Origin: an uncultured Pirellula sp.
Lineage (GTDB): Bacteria; Planctomycetota; Planctomycetia; Pirellulales; Pirellulaceae
Assembly: GCA_903892355.1 (NCBI GenBank)
Contig: CAITIE010000150.1
Span: forward strand, 62,001 to 126,000
Reading direction: 5' to 3'
Length of the DNA: 64,000 nucleotides
In this document: piece by piece, positions 21,290 through 62,858 of the stretch
How positions within the stretch are numbered: position 1 is the first letter of the stretch
How the letters are laid out: each line of letters opens with the position of its first letter
Notes under the pieces: model-generated
Database searches by the model: none
What the model was told of the DNA's origin: nothing
The model's input: the letters and a program-made list of their open reading frames with translations, nothing else
Position numbers and translations under genes: made by a program

Positions 21290-22870
21290 CTACTTGCTCT
21301 CACGATGCAGCTTGTATTCGACCGCATCGACCAAAGCCGACCAACTCGCTTCGATGATATTCTCGCTAACGCCGATAGTCCGCCAGGATGCGTGATCGTC
21401 GGCGCTCTCGATGTTGACTCGAATTCGCGCCGCAGTTCCCGCTTCGCTGTTAACCACACGGACTTTGTAATCCATCAGTCGCATCGATTCGACGCACGGG
21501 AAGAATGGGGCCAATGTTTTGCGAAGCGCCGCATCCATTGCGTTGACAGGCCCGTGTCCTTCGGCAGCCTCCACGCACACTTCGTCCCCGACTCGCAACT
21601 TCAAGATCGCTTCCGCATAGGTCTGATTCCTCTCGGTATCCAGATCCCCTGCAAGGATCTGGTATTTGATCGTTTCAAAATGCGGCGTGTATGTCCCGGA
21701 ACACTGCTTGACCAACAGATCGAAGGAAGCCTCGGCGGCTTCGAACTGGTATCCTTGATTCTCCTTCGCGACGACCTGTGCAAGAATCCTGTCTAGCAGT
21801 TCTCGGTCGTTAGGTATCTGATGGTCTTGGGTCAAGGCAGCGATGTTCGATCGCCCGGAGAGCTCGCTTACCAGAATCCTGCGTTCATTCCCCACGAGCG
21901 CTGGATCCATATGCTCATACGTATGGGCGAATTTATTGACTGCGTGGACGTGCATGCCTCCTTTGTGCGCAAAGGCGCTGCGTCCTACAAACGGCTGGCT
22001 GCTGCGTGGAGCAAGGTTCGCGATCTCGTAGACGTAACGCGACAACTCGGTCAAATGATCTAGCGGTTGACCGCCGAGCGTTTGATACCCTTTCTTTTTA
22101 AATTGCAGGTTGGAGATCACACAAACCAAATCAGCGTTCCCGCAACGTTCGCCGATCCCATTCATAGTCCCTTGGACTTGATCGCATCCGGCATCGATGG
22201 CGGCGAGGGAGTTCGCGGTCGCCAGATCGCCATCGTTGTGGCAGTGAATACCCAGCTTAACATTGCAGGGGCTCAAATGCCGTTTGGCATCCGAAACTAT
22301 GGCGGCTACTTCCTCGGGGAGTGAACCTCCATTGGTGTCGCAAAATACGATCCACTTCGCTCCCGCCCGTGCAGCAGCTTCGACGGCTGAAAGAGCGTAC
22401 TGGCGATTGGCCTTGTATCCATCGAAAAAGTGCTCCGCGTCGTAAACAATCGTCGCGTACGCGGAAAGGTACTCGACGCTTTCACTGATCATGTCCAAGT
22501 TCTCTTGGAGGGAAACGCCGAGGACTTCCGTGGCGTGAAAGTCCCACGACTTGCCAACGAGGGTGATCACCGGCGTTTGCGCCGCGACCAAGGCTTTGAT
22601 CCCCGGGTCGTCGGCCGCTTTCATCCCCCGTCGTCGCGTCATCCCGAACGCTGATAGCTGACTATTACCTAACTTTAGGTCGCGGGCACGTTGAAAGAAC
22701 ATCGCATCCTTTTCGTTCGAAAGCGGATATCCGCCTTCGATCATGTCGACTCCGATCTCAGCGAGTCGCGAAGCTATGTTGAGCTTGTCTTGGAGCGACA
22801 GGCTCACCCCTTCGCCTTGGGTACCATCGCGCAGCGTAGTATCGTAGATATGGATGGATCGTGTGGTCAT
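21290..22870 (-). CDS. cimA: (R)-citramalate synthase
   Basis: About 526 residues. It condenses pyruvate and acetyl-CoA to citramalate, the threonine-independent route to 2-oxobutyrate and isoleucine. The DRE-TIM barrel shows IYDTTLRDGTQGEGVSLSLQ, IVFCDTNGG, GIHCHNDGDLATANSLAAID and MNGIGERCGNADL. The C-terminal regulatory LeuA-type domain follows (FDLLVKQCSGTYTPHFETIK onward), the site of end-product inhibition in this family. The pattern fits the CimA (TIGR00977) branch better than 2-isopropylmalate synthase. The ATG at 22870 is chosen at the start of homology; no Shine-Dalgarno is seen. The leader carries a probable isoleucine attenuator. The 3' end faces the glycosyltransferase gene. Confidence 0.93.
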   Translation of the reverse strand: MTTRSIHIYDTTLRDGTQGEGVSLSLQDKLNIASRLAEIGVDMIEGGYPLSNEKDAMFFQRARDLKLGNSQLSAFGMTRRRGMKAADDPGIKALVAAQTPVITLVGKSWDFHATEVLGVSLQENLDMISESVEYLSAYATIVYDAEHFFDGYKANRQYALSAVEAAARAGAKWIVFCDTNGGSLPEEVAAIVSDAKRHLSPCNVKLGIHCHNDGDLATANSLAAIDAGCDQVQGTMNGIGERCGNADLVCVISNLQFKKKGYQTLGGQPLDHLTELSRYVYEIANLAPRSSQPFVGRSAFAHKGGMHVHAVNKFAHTYEHMDPALVGNERRILVSELSGRSNIAALTQDHQIPNDRELLDRILAQVVAKENQGYQFEAAEASFDLLVKQCSGTYTPHFETIKYQILAGDLDTERNQTYAEAILKLRVGDEVCVEAAEGHGPVNAMDAALRKTLAPFFPCVESMRLMDYKVRVVNSEAGTAARIRVNIESADDHASWRTIGVSENIIEASWSALVDAVEYKLHRESK

Positions 22871-22901
22871 TGTGATTGTGGTTCGCGAATGGGCTGTCAA
22901 C

Positions 22902-22935
22902 AAAAAAACCCCTGGAGCGTCAGGCTACAGGGGTT
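22902..22935 (-). terminator. Intrinsic terminator in the cimA leader (attenuator)
   Basis: On the minus strand aacccctg pairs with caggggtt (22935-22928 with 22914-22907). A mismatch and three more pairs (agc/gct) close a 5-base loop, and seven T residues follow at 22908-22902. This is a textbook Rho-independent terminator. It lies between the leader and cimA, where it can only act to stop transcription before the gene. Its upstream arm can pair with an earlier leader segment instead. Confidence 0.85.
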
Positions 22936-22996
22936 GGTAAGAAACACAGTAAACACAGACACGGTACCAACAAAAGTAGTACGTGGTGCCAAACTG

Positions 22997-23024
22997 TTCC
23001 CCAAAGCCTAACGGCGTCGGGGAA
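22997..23024 (-). promoter_or_regulatory. Leader hairpin 1 / antiterminator switch of cimA
   Basis: The minus strand folds ttcccc (23024-23019) with ggggaa (23002-22997), with an inner gcc/ggc pair block around a tetraloop. The 5' arm begins at the last of three Ile codons of the leader peptide, and the loop holds its stop codon. The 3' half (AGGCUUUGGGG in RNA, 23009-22999) can instead pair with CCCCUGUAGCCU in the 5' part of the terminator: five pairs, an internal loop, then four G-C pairs. Mutual exclusion of the two folds is the hallmark of attenuation. Confidence 0.65.
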
Positions 23025-23067
23025 TAATAATCTCTTTGGATCGGTAAACGGAAGGGATATTCGGCAT
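23008..23067 (-). CDS. Candidate Ile-rich leader peptide controlling cimA
   Basis: A 19-codon frame from ATG to TAG encodes MPNIPSVYRSKEIIIPRRR. Four of 19 residues are Ile, and three are consecutive ATT codons at positions 13-15, at the 5' base of leader hairpin 1; the stop codon falls in that hairpin's loop. cimA makes an isoleucine precursor, so Ile codons are the expected sensor. No Shine-Dalgarno is seen upstream, which is common in this genome. A second frame nearby reads through many Leu codons but has no good start. The peptide itself should have no function beyond ribosome stalling. Confidence 0.6.
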   Translation of the reverse strand: MPNIPSVYRSKEIIIPRRR

Positions 23068-23185
23068 AGTTGCAGGGAGTGCAGGACTAAAAAAACGCTA
23101 AAAACCCGTCGATTCAGTCGGCCAATCCATGACTCGAGCGACACGTCGCACGAACGCTTGGCAGCGGCCGACTCAACCTTCAACT

Positions 23186-23214
23186 AGTGTTTCTCACATA
23201 CCTGCCTTTGTCAA
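23186..23214 (-). promoter_or_regulatory. Candidate cimA leader promoter
   Basis: A perfect TTGACA lies at 23214-23209 on the minus strand. At 17 bases spacing the -10 position reads AACACT, only a partial match. Transcription from here would start near 23179 and give a leader of about 310 bases that includes the whole attenuator. Confidence 0.35.
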
Positions 23215-23310
23215 CCAAGCCCATCCGCCCGACTCCTGAAGAATGAGGGAAAAACCATGCCCGGCGGCTTTGCAATCGTCTTATCAATCCCTTAACAAAC
23301 TACCAATCCC

Positions 23311-24654
23311 TTAGCGAATCAGTTCGCGTAGTCGGTCCGCAACGCAAACATTCCGCAAGGCATCCTTCAGGTGAGGAGCCACAAAGACGCGGACTCGTTT
23401 CACCAAGGCATCGAATTGTTCCGTTGCCAGTGACTGCACCACGGGTGACAGCTCCACTAAATTTCGGAAACTGCCATCGCGCATCCGAACTCGCAAATCG
23501 AACTGCACCTCCAGTTTGACTGGGGGTGCATCGATGAGCACATCATCGCGTCCAATAGCAACACCCGTTTGCTTGCTGAACGACTCCCCCAAGGCTCGAG
23601 AGAGCGAGACAATGTCCTGGTATGGGCGACGAGCCAGAGCGCTATGCAAGTCAGGTTCGACGAGACGATCGAACTGAGCAATTCGTTTGTATAGCGATCG
23701 CCTCATACCAAACAAACCGAGAATGCAATTTTCCCATGGCTTGCCTCGCGAGTTTTCTACGAGCGATTCCGTCATCGTCGCTTCGTCCATCTCCAGCCAC
23801 GAACCTACCAAATCGATCGAATCTCGCAATTCAAAAACGGCCCGCTGAATCATCGCGGTCGCGCTGCGGACGGCATGATGCCAATAAACTTCGCTGAACA
23901 TCACATAGCGCGCGAAAACCATCATTTCGGCTGCAGTGCGACCTTTCTCAGAAATAGCGATTCGTTTTCGGGGTTGATCAACACATAACGAATGGACCAA
24001 CCGATTGCGGTCAAAGTTTCTACCATAAGGTACCCCCGCGTGGAGCGAGTCCCGCTCTAAGTAGTCGAGCTTGTCAATGTCAACGGGGCCACTGAGCATC
24101 GAGCGCAAGATTGCATGGCTGTCCGAAACGCGGTGTAAAATTGGCTCAAGAGTATGCGTTGCAGCCTCGCGAGCCGAACGCGGATCCAGAAACGCAGCCA
24201 CCTCCGCAGGATCCAAATCCCAGTCCTTTCGGAGGAGCTCCGCCAACTCTCGATGCTCGAGCAGTCGGGTCGCCAAAACCTCGTGCTTGGGGAAATCGAC
24301 CAAGCGGATATCCTCGATCGCGTGGCAGAATGGCCAGTGGCCAATATCGTGCAACAATCCGGAGACGACGAACAACGAGGCATCATGGTCGCTAAAAACC
24401 ATAGGGGCCGCAGTGTCGCTGGCGAGTTGCTTTAGGAACTCAAGTGAATTGCGATAAACGCCCAGGGAATGCTCAAACCGGGTATGGGTTGCCCCGGGGT
24501 AAACCAGCCCCACCAATCCTAACTGACTGATTCTCGCCAGGCGTCGGAAGGCCGCTGTGTCGATCAAACGCCGCACTCGAGGAGTGGTCGGAACGTCCAT
24601 CTCGGGGCTGATCCGAATCACCGAACCGGTTTGCTGAATCTCAGGGATCGCCAT
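23311..24654 (-). CDS. HD-domain phosphohydrolase (dNTPase/SAMHD1-like)
   Basis: About 447 residues. The HD metal site is complete: ATHTRFEHSLGVY (His62), SGLLHDIGHWPFCHAIED (His102-Asp103, His111), and downstream SGPVDIDKLDYLERDS with the fourth ligand. The N-terminal VRRLIDTAAFRRLARISQLG is the usual lead-in of dGTPase-like HD proteins. Relatives remove triphosphate from dNTPs, but the nucleotide cannot be inferred. The ATG at 24654 is preferred because ggaga sits six bases before it; an in-frame start 36 bases earlier is less likely. It lies upstream of cimA on the same strand, but the 440-base leader region with its own promoter candidate separates them. Confidence 0.9.
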   Translation of the reverse strand: MAIPEIQQTGSVIRISPEMDVPTTPRVRRLIDTAAFRRLARISQLGLVGLVYPGATHTRFEHSLGVYRNSLEFLKQLASDTAAPMVFSDHDASLFVVSGLLHDIGHWPFCHAIEDIRLVDFPKHEVLATRLLEHRELAELLRKDWDLDPAEVAAFLDPRSAREAATHTLEPILHRVSDSHAILRSMLSGPVDIDKLDYLERDSLHAGVPYGRNFDRNRLVHSLCVDQPRKRIAISEKGRTAAEMMVFARYVMFSEVYWHHAVRSATAMIQRAVFELRDSIDLVGSWLEMDEATMTESLVENSRGKPWENCILGLFGMRRSLYKRIAQFDRLVEPDLHSALARRPYQDIVSLSRALGESFSKQTGVAIGRDDVLIDAPPVKLEVQFDLRVRMRDGSFRNLVELSPVVQSLATEQFDALVKRVRVFVAPHLKDALRNVCVADRLRELIR

Positions 24655-24844
24655 TATCTTCTCCAAACATCCGATCCCGCGCGGCCCCACGACACATCGA
24701 AATATCCGGGGAAACGTTACTATTCTTCATCGATTCCCTCAATTCTACCCCTACTTGGCCGTTTTTAAGAGCCCCGCTCCCTCTAGACGTTCGACTAAAC
24801 TATGAATAGAGAAAAAGCTGGTTGAACGAGAACACTGAGGGTGC

Positions 24845-62000: not shown

Positions 62001-62858
62001 TCACTGCCGAGTGGGTCCGTTGGGTCCCATCGGAGGTGGCGGGTAGCCCAAGCGAGGCCGCAGTTGCTCCCAAGATTGTTTCAACGAATCCAAGAGCCGC
62101 CATATATGCCCGGCAGCCAAAAAAACTCGGCAACTCACGGCGGATTGCGGATAGAAGTTGGTGATGAAATCGAAACTAAACTCGTAGGGTCCATGCCCTA
62201 TCATGACCGCGTTGGCATACGTGCCACACAAGATCTCATCGCGGATCTTTAGCTCATCGTAGATGTCTTGCGGGTTTTGCCGTTTTGGCGCCTGCCCCAT
62301 ACCTGTCCCGCCATGGGGTGTCCCATGCGAAACACCTTGAGATGCTCCATGAGCCGGGTGCTCCCCAGTTTCATGAGACGAGCCATCCCCTGGCTCACCA
62401 GCACCTAGAGAAGAACTCGGCAAGGGATTAGAAGCTGGATTTCCGGGTCCTGGGCTACCCGAAGCCAGGTTCACCGAAGCTGACATGCCAGGAGACGGCC
62501 CACTGGGGACCGGCAAATTTGTGCCGACTTGGACCACATGGCTTTCCACGGCGGACGGATTCATCGGAAGCGGCACACCCGGCAACTCACCATAGCGTTG
62601 CCGATACAATTCAATGTTGGTCGAGAGAGCCTCGATGAACTGTGGCATCACCATGTGCGGCAATACGACTCTCGCTACGATCGCGTTAGGTCGGGGTATA
62701 TTGCGAACAAAATCCAGGACGAACTCAGTCCCCCCGGTGACGACAATGACCCCGGTGCTGATCTCACCGCGGGCTACTTGATCCGTCACGCGCGCTCTCA
62801 CCGCAGGCATGTTCTCATTAGGATCGGGACGATCGTCGGGAGACGGAGGAGTAGGCAT
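62001..62858 (-). CDS. Tandem DUF3467 protein
   Basis: A 285-residue protein with two copies of a DUF3467-like domain. Copy 1 spans about 18-95 (STGVIVVTGGTEFVLDFVRN, then ARVVLPHMVMPQFIEALSTN). Copy 2 spans about 200-272 (YANAVMIGHGPYEFSFDFIT, then CRVFLAAGHIWRLLDSLKQS). A ~95-residue Ser/Pro/Gly/His-rich linker separates them. DUF3467 proteins are normally single-domain and of unknown function. The ATG at 62858 follows acaggaa by about 9 bases; an upstream in-frame start is less likely. It lies between nusB and maf on the same strand, about 140 bases after nusB. Confidence 0.85.
   Translation of the reverse strand: MPTPPSPDDRPDPNENMPAVRARVTDQVARGEISTGVIVVTGGTEFVLDFVRNIPRPNAIVARVVLPHMVMPQFIEALSTNIELYRQRYGELPGVPLPMNPSAVESHVVQVGTNLPVPSGPSPGMSASVNLASGSPGPGNPASNPLPSSSLGAGEPGDGSSHETGEHPAHGASQGVSHGTPHGGTGMGQAPKRQNPQDIYDELKIRDEILCGTYANAVMIGHGPYEFSFDFITNFYPQSAVSCRVFLAAGHIWRLLDSLKQSWEQLRPRLGYPPPPMGPNGPTRQ

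Follow-up and report, generated by a model that had tools for sequence, protein, structure and literature searches.

In the window analysed here, the whole stretch of 64,000 nucleotides (positions 62,001 to 126,000 of contig CAITIE010000150.1) from an uncultured Pirellula sp., the leader preceding cimA, the gene for citramalate synthase, very probably acts as a ribosome-mediated transcription attenuator which senses charged isoleucine tRNA, judging from its sequence and from comparison with relatives. A small open reading frame (ORF) with specificity for isoleucine, an intrinsic terminator, a strand shared between this terminator and an alternative pairing, and the conservation of the arrangement before cimA are all established by the sequence and by comparison with relatives. 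The features of the leader, and the evidence behind each, are as follows:

23008..23067, minus strand: leader peptide ORF, MPNIPSVYRSKEIIIPRRR*; read from the sequence, with an isoleucine-rich ORF kept at the same place in relatives
23023..23031, minus strand: control codons, three ATT (isoleucine) in tandem; read from the sequence, mostly ATT or ATC in the genus, with isoleucine enriched across 117 leaders
22997..23024, minus strand: hairpin 1, the putative protector, composed of strands 1 and 2; fold and pair counts
22999..23008, minus strand: strand 2, GGCTTTGGGG, predicted 5' side of the antiterminator; duplex with strand 3 of -13.2 kcal/mol
22923..22933, minus strand: strand 3, CCCCTGTAGCC, common to the predicted antiterminator and the terminator; duplex, permutation and genus alignment
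22902..22935, minus strand: intrinsic terminator, AACCCCTG...CAGGGGTT, with seven T; -16.4 kcal/mol
21290..22870, minus strand: cimA (citramalate synthase), the presumed regulated gene; TIGR00977, 649.7 bits against a cut-off of 450
23209..23214, minus strand: TTGACA, a possible -35 element; read from the sequence, followed after a 17-nt spacer by only AACACT

The leader ORF begins with an ATG at 23067-23065 and extends over 19 codons to the stop codon TAG at 23010-23008. Its peptide contains four isoleucines and one valine: the three tandem ATT codons occupy 23031-23029, 23028-23026 and 23025-23023, codon 4 (ATC) provides the fourth isoleucine, and the valine lies outside the run. Directly after the three ATT codons follows hairpin 1, in which CCCC (23022-23019) pairs with GGGG (23002-22999), accompanied by an inner GCC/GGC stem and two flanking U-A pairs, and the peptide stop codon is positioned across the loop and the inner stem. 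Strand 2 (23008-22999) is able to pair with strand 3 (22933-22923), and the terminator lies 36 nt from cimA, which starts with an ATG at 22870. Upon folding, the 347-nt leader surpasses 100 of 100 dinucleotide shuffles (z -2.86). An earlier note on this DNA had proposed the peptide, the ATT run, hairpin 1, the alternative pairing and the terminator; all of their coordinates proved right on re-reading of the sequence, and its naming of the gene as citramalate synthase agrees with the TIGR00977 match listed above.

In the proposed mechanism, RNA polymerase would transcribe the leader while a ribosome translates the predicted 19-residue peptide. With ample isoleucine tRNA, the ribosome would arrive at the stop codon and cover strand 2, because the stop codon overlaps the start of this strand; strand 3 would then pair with strand 4, and transcription would end before cimA. 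With scarce isoleucine tRNA, the ribosome would wait on ATT-ATT-ATT and thereby cover strand 1, the run of C located just after the isoleucine codons; strand 2 would then be available to strand 3, formation of the terminator would be blocked and cimA would be transcribed. If the leader is not translated at all, hairpin 1 would hold strand 2 and transcription would mostly end.

The combination of an isoleucine-rich ORF and a terminator recurs before cimA in most of the genera examined in the family. Among 241 genomes of the same GTDB family, 179 have a CimA match at E <= 1e-150, and 148 upstream regions were examined. A strong terminator, defined as a hairpin at -14 kcal/mol or better and at most 320 nt from cimA, is present in 117 of these regions at a distance of 19-238 nt from the gene (median 46 nt, 104/117 within 100 nt). 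An ATG-started ORF with at least 3 isoleucines in 12 codons, situated within 220 nt before the terminator, occurs in 84 of the 117 terminator leaders, as opposed to 6.0 in 20 rounds of dinucleotide shuffling and 14 on the reverse complement. When any start codon is allowed, 96 loci combine an isoleucine-rich ORF with a terminator. The ORF richest in isoleucine is picked automatically, so the 96 include a wrong frame at L021, where the true leader by eye carries VVII, and, probably, some ORFs that arose by chance, such as those at L032 and L038; L014 (IMI) and L025 (ITI) were dropped by the rule and are by eye members of the set. Using the genus labels assigned by the search tool, 32 of 41 genera have at least one member with an isoleucine-rich leader ORF before cimA, and 36 have one with a terminator. 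The leader peptides diverge widely between genera, as illustrated by MSQIGNIVIENIITAGIIIPVRVVSNVIIAT* (L132), MSTVFAAKPLSAVAALAAGGIIIGGTRA* (L126) and MRPITTCIAIIPIFEIAIIGHLYGGATLG* (L031), while the isoleucine runs persist.

Among the other residues, valine comes second, with 36/117 leaders (7.2 shuffled, 15 on the reverse complement), and none of the rest is enriched to a similar degree. Glycine reaches 25/117 against 12.4 in the shuffles, but 22 on the reverse complement, serine 30 against 20.9, and leucine shows no enrichment (16/117 against 16.1). The valine count, together with valine codons which stand beside isoleucine runs in many genera, speaks for a signal comprising the branched-chain amino acids more broadly, that is, isoleucine and valine. 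This broader signal is improbable for the window, where the lone valine lies outside the run and four isoleucines are present, and the leucine pathway leaders described below carry leucine rather than valine. The earlier note had regarded a leucine-rich second frame, ending near 22920, as the main rival for the sensing peptide. This frame does exist in the sequence and is open in the window as well as in L003, but in L004, whose CimA is 98% identical, the spacer is 16 nt shorter and the frame gains a stop; moreover, the spacer is variable across the genus. Given the stop in L004 and the missing enrichment of leucine, comparison refutes the second frame as the sensor and leaves it next to no credibility.

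Within the genus of the window, 21 of 25 regions possess a recognisable leader and were aligned over the isoleucine run, the stop codon, strand 2 and the terminator. The stop codon is TAG in 21/21 leaders. The first isoleucine codon of the run is ATT in 20 leaders and GTT in one, the second is ATT in 17, ATC in one, ATG in one and ACG in two, and the third is ATT in 11, ATC in nine and AGC in one; the departures from ATT over the three codons thus comprise ten synonymous and five other changes. Paired cells account for 98.3% of the alignment in the terminator, 91.5% in the antiterminator and 78.2% in hairpin 1, where some rows show the C-run shifted by one position. The spacer that separates hairpin 1 from the terminator differs in both length and sequence. 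The earlier note had staked its idea on conservation of the leader frame and the pairings in close relatives, and the idea survived the comparison of these 21 leaders. The compensatory changes for which it proposed a check are almost absent within the genus; covariation is seen between genera.

No leader is found in the genus members L006, L007 and L024. A fourth region, L023, comprises only 17 nt upstream of cimA at a contig end, and an intact leader lies at another contig end of the same genome (L289). In L024, the terminator is retained and the isoleucine peptide is gone, with a promoter-like TATAAT just before the leader remnant; the switch may have decayed in this member. A covariance model of the genus leaders, termed R1, places the cimA leader of the window genome at E 2.1e-18 and the next place at 0.058. 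As the window leader is itself part of R1, the first match arises by construction, and all that the genome scan tells is the lack of a second conspicuous copy.

Pairing between strand 2 and strand 3 was compared across genera using one locus from each of 32 genera, with the stop-codon segment set against the terminator arms. The segments pair with their own arms at a mean of -14.7 kcal/mol, a value reached by none of 10,000 permutations of the arms. In 500 random picks of loci, own pairs average -15.1 kcal/mol and permuted pairs -12.7 kcal/mol, with 0/500 reversed. On average, the own arm ranks at 0.35, where 0.5 would be random, and the preference is a tendency, not a rule. Several stem positions exhibit at least two pair types across genera, although these pairs were picked by the folding program and the counts consequently lean to standard pairs. 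The kinship of the genera inflates both the permutation test and the count of pair types. The best duplex of strand 2 takes in a base of the stop codon in 45/96 loci and in 20/32 genera, often as TAGGG against CCCT.

The structure formed at each position of the ribosome was modelled by folding. The model assumes that the ribosome covers 13 nt past the start of the A-site codon, a footprint taken from E. coli, and returns the mean probability that the bases of strand 3 are engaged with upstream RNA while strand 4 is still to be transcribed; the calculation is an equilibrium one and is non-kinetic. For the window, the model gives 0.37, 0.38 and 0.51 with the ribosome on the successive ATT codons and 0.48, 0.32 and 0.29 for the three codons that follow, compared with 0.02-0.15 at codons upstream of the run, 0.13 at the last arginine codon, 0.14 at the stop codon and 0.25 in the ribosome-free leader. 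A ribosome at the isoleucine run or on the next three codons would therefore most favour the on state, at a probability of only about one half. Across the 96 loci, the modelled medians are 0.67 on the isoleucine run, 0.57 on upstream codons, 0.30 when the A site holds the stop codon and 0.47 without a ribosome. In 77/96 loci and 29/32 genera, the value on the run lies more than 0.2 above the minimum over the last three positions, and in three loci it lies below that minimum; taking the minimum favours the attenuator reading and was done without a matched control. If only the fall from the run to the stop codon is counted, its median is 0.33, as opposed to 0.05 when the intervening sequence is shuffled by single bases, and 81/96 loci exceed their own shuffled control. 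The geometry put forward in the earlier note, in which stalling at isoleucine codons frees the antiterminator and completion of the peptide gives the terminator, is also what the model predicts in the 77 loci.

The ribosome-free values bear on a variant with only two states, in which the antiterminator is the default, the ribosome acts solely by covering strand 2, hairpin 1 is accidental or secondary, and an untranslated leader reads through. In 30/96 loci, strand 3 of the ribosome-free leader is predicted to be held at 0.6 or more, including values of 0.77-0.84 in L114, L119, L131, L090 and L126, where it would be released only at the last few codons. Hairpin 1 would thus be dispensable in part of the relatives, in which the antiterminator forms in the ribosome-free leader and is undone as the ribosome nears the stop codon. 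On the other side stand 26/96 loci with 0.3 or less, among them 11 of the 19 modelled members of the window's genus (one of the 19 is at 0.6 or more), and the low values in the window itself, by which hairpin 1 and other upstream pairings do protect in the model. Because the counts in the genus favour the protected form, the two-state variant is considered unlikely for the window. On these models, some of the family would be on by default, and most members of the window's genus off by default.

A broader account is offered more tentatively. It may be that leader-peptide attenuators are old and widespread in Planctomycetes, with one for each committed enzyme: cimA for isoleucine, leuA for leucine, and 3-deoxy-D-arabino-heptulosonate 7-phosphate (DAHP) synthase for phenylalanine, tyrosine and tryptophan. 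As the antiterminator often includes the stop codon, part of these attenuators would be on by default and turned off only by a ribosome that completes the peptide, while the genus of the window would be off by default via the protecting hairpin.

The attenuator logic of cimA predicts leucine-rich leaders before leuA and aromatic ones before DAHP synthase, and such leaders are found, albeit in biased samples. Searched against 240 family genomes, R1 hits 69 at E <= 0.01. The 22 matches below 1e-16 all belong to the genus, and 21 of them are training sequences of R1. Another 20 matches were taken up: seven lie before cimA, one is the contig-end leader L289, five lie before leuA (L281, L283, L284, L295 and L296), six before DAHP synthase (L282, L287, L292, L293, L297 and L298) and one elsewhere (L294). 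Three of the downstream proteins were compared with NCBIfam as 300-residue pieces; the protein downstream of L282 is DAHP synthase (NF006421 / TIGR01361), and two LeuA pieces score under the whole-protein cut-offs. The match at L294 (G238:C329) is weak (E 0.0026), precedes a gene other than cimA, leuA or that for DAHP synthase, and resembles an ordinary terminator after a coding region.

Both sets examined further were obtained with queries from leader-bearing genomes by taking the best 30 matches, and nine of the DAHP synthase loci belong to one genus. Before leuA (L301-L330), 26 of the 30 loci have a terminator, and 25/26 of these contain an ATG-started ORF with at least 4 leucines in 12 codons (1.6 in shuffles). 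These leaders, which are present in many genera of the family, show leucine and not valine. Before DAHP synthase (L331-L360), 26 of 30 loci are usable, as three starts were not found and one locus is without a terminator; 25/26 have at least 5 phenylalanine, tyrosine or tryptophan residues in 12 codons (0.2 shuffled), and 21 have at least 4 phenylalanines (0.1). Glycine is also enriched in the DAHP synthase leaders (11 against 0.5), many of which carry a glycine-rich tail before the stop codon. A further 20 chosen regions revealed leaders in 5/11 cases before DAHP synthase and 6/9 before leuA. The occupancy pattern holds in 22/27 hand-selected leuA and DAHP synthase leaders when the lowest of the last four positions is used, without a shuffled control. 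The window genome itself contains a phenylalanine- and tyrosine-rich ORF, MIYTHDFYSLRQFYFASGQFYFASGQTV*, which has an internal repeat and stands, together with a terminator, before DAHP synthase (L361, G000:C88:66300); this is probably a second amino-acid attenuator. By inspection only of the 420 nt upstream of the first ATG, no leader peptide was seen in this genome before ilvB, trpE or leuA, and the first ATG used for ilvB may not be the true start.

These leaders also help to assess whether the hairpin before cimA might do no more than terminate the upstream gene, with the peptide there by chance. The upstream gene is encoded on the same strand and has its stop codon at 23311-23313, and an intergenic terminator in such a place would be unremarkable. 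Yet across the family the hairpin stands close to cimA, at the median distance given above, and follows an isoleucine-rich ORF in 32/41 genera; promoter-like sites precede the ORF in 77/96 loci, and the leuA and DAHP synthase leaders match their genes in specificity. On comparison of distances, ORFs, promoter scores and the leuA and DAHP synthase leaders, an ordinary terminator is ruled out, with only a very slight chance left to it. The upstream gene itself, on the minus strand at 23311-24690, resembles a dGTP triphosphohydrolase, well under the cut-off (45.5 against 152.35 bits).

The promoter-like sites are places before the ORF where a TTGACA-type promoter scores more than 5; they were counted without a shuffled control. 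In the 77 loci, the -10 box lies within 15 nt of the ORF start in 14, at 16-40 nt in 32 and farther away in 31. Leaderless translation, with the -10 box close to the start in only 14/77 loci, is therefore no general rule.

Several results weigh against the attenuator reading and are considered together here. In the window, a simple pattern scanner reported neither a promoter nor a terminator in 22500-24000, no clear -10 box lies downstream of the TTGACA at 23214-23209 and the promoter score is low (2.8), and no evident Shine-Dalgarno-like sequence precedes the leader ORF. Its duplex of strands 2 and 3 is equalled by 7/100 shuffles, and only 39/96 loci have a duplex that at most 5/100 shuffles equal (median z -1.5). 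In the permutation set, the window's own arm ranks last (1.0) of 32 for its strand 2, where cutting the arms at the end of the terminator stem removes a C used by the window antiterminator, and the ranks are nearly as bad at L028 and L029 (genera g5 and g51). Even the best antiterminator probability in the window amounts to about one half. The genus provides almost no covariation and hence no support from it, because the paired bases hardly vary. Across the family, 52/148 regions fail at least one automatic criterion, and genus g50 has a strong terminator in 0/13 regions. In the g50 loci L051, L057, L063, L065 and L068, coding-looking sequence extends almost up to cimA, which in these five is probably an internal operon gene.

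Beyond the regions above, similar leaders appear in other parts of the phylum. A sample of the phylum yielded CimA matches at E <= 1e-100 in 88/195 genomes, and 39 upstream regions were analysed. A terminator with at least 3 isoleucines in 12 codons occurs in 12/16 regions from one further family in the window's class and in the single region examined from another family of the same order. Among three further members of the window's family, two have a terminator and at least 3 isoleucines, and one has two isoleucines. Elsewhere in the phylum, 3/20 regions qualify (L182, with MNIQNIIISIIINIGGD*, L183 and L186). Among the best 80 named loci of a larger scan, 16 have a terminator with at least 3 isoleucines: 10/28 of those counted as planctomycetes from their labels, including Gimesia, Singulisphaera and Gemmata, and 6/52 with other labels, namely Deltaproteobacteria, Desulfobacteria, Desulfobacteraceae or Syntrophus. 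In these six (L220, L224, L233, L242, L246 and L247), the terminator is mostly of the CCGTTATCAGG...CCTGGTAACGG type, unlike the planctomycete ones.

Control of cimA by a T-box or a metabolite riboswitch would equally involve a leader with a terminator, the sole feature that speaks for it, and has hardly any probability, as 0 Rfam families reach their gathering score in the 64-kb window. Six matches at E up to 10 fall in 22800-23320, all far under their gathering scores, and the lowest E-value belongs to NsiR1 (21.9 bits against 39, E 0.053). A published T-box study gives none for the single planctomycete genome that it covers (PMC2494555).

The cimA leader resembles known attenuators in layout. 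The E. coli trp attenuator likewise has four strands, with a ribosome at the control codons freeing strand 2 and a ribosome at the stop codon covering it; unlike trp, part of the cimA relatives appear, on the folding model, to form the antiterminator without a ribosome. The ilvGMEDA and ilvBN attenuators of enterobacteria, compared here by layout and not by sequence, share a leader peptide rich in branched-chain residues, a terminator, an exclusive antiterminator and ribosome position as the signal, but they precede genes for acetolactate synthase and respond to several branched-chain amino acids, whereas the leader described here precedes cimA and would sense mainly isoleucine.

The ilvB motif uORFC-75-1 of Corynebacterium, as described in the relevant sections of its report, similarly combines an ORF enriched in isoleucine, leucine and valine with a terminator stem and an alternative antiterminator; it differs in phylum, gene and sequence, and was reported there only in Corynebacterium (PMC11109978). 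Histidine leader peptides before hisS in bacilli were also found by comparison outside Proteobacteria and Actinobacteria, in a different phylum and before different genes (PMC2965389). According to the main text of that study, leader-peptide systems had been shown in Proteobacteria and Actinobacteria, to which it added Firmicutes, and this text makes no mention of Planctomycet- or Rhodopirellula (PMC2965389). The pertinent passages of a further paper contain no amino-acid attenuator in Planctomycetes (PMC8632094), and leader genes near start codons in Planctomycetes, as presented in the sections concerned, are a separate subject (PMC4833913). No attenuator of this kind in Planctomycetes or before cimA was found in the accessible portions of the open-access literature, which within that scope agrees with the earlier note, whose author knew of none described in Planctomycetes. 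The kind of regulation is thus already known, and the phylum is one for which no earlier description was found in this literature; a novelty could lie in the default-on layout of part of the relatives.

In the literature covered here, little seems to have been written on how Planctomycetes control the synthesis of amino acids. The leaders reported here provide a layer of control which can be read from the sequence, recurs in three pathways and has its signal named by its codons. They support cimA as a controlled entry to isoleucine synthesis in these bacteria and point to small proteins possibly missed by gene callers. If the default-on arrangement holds true, attenuation would here be laid out more simply than in the textbook case, and the gain and loss of the protecting hairpin would become open to study.

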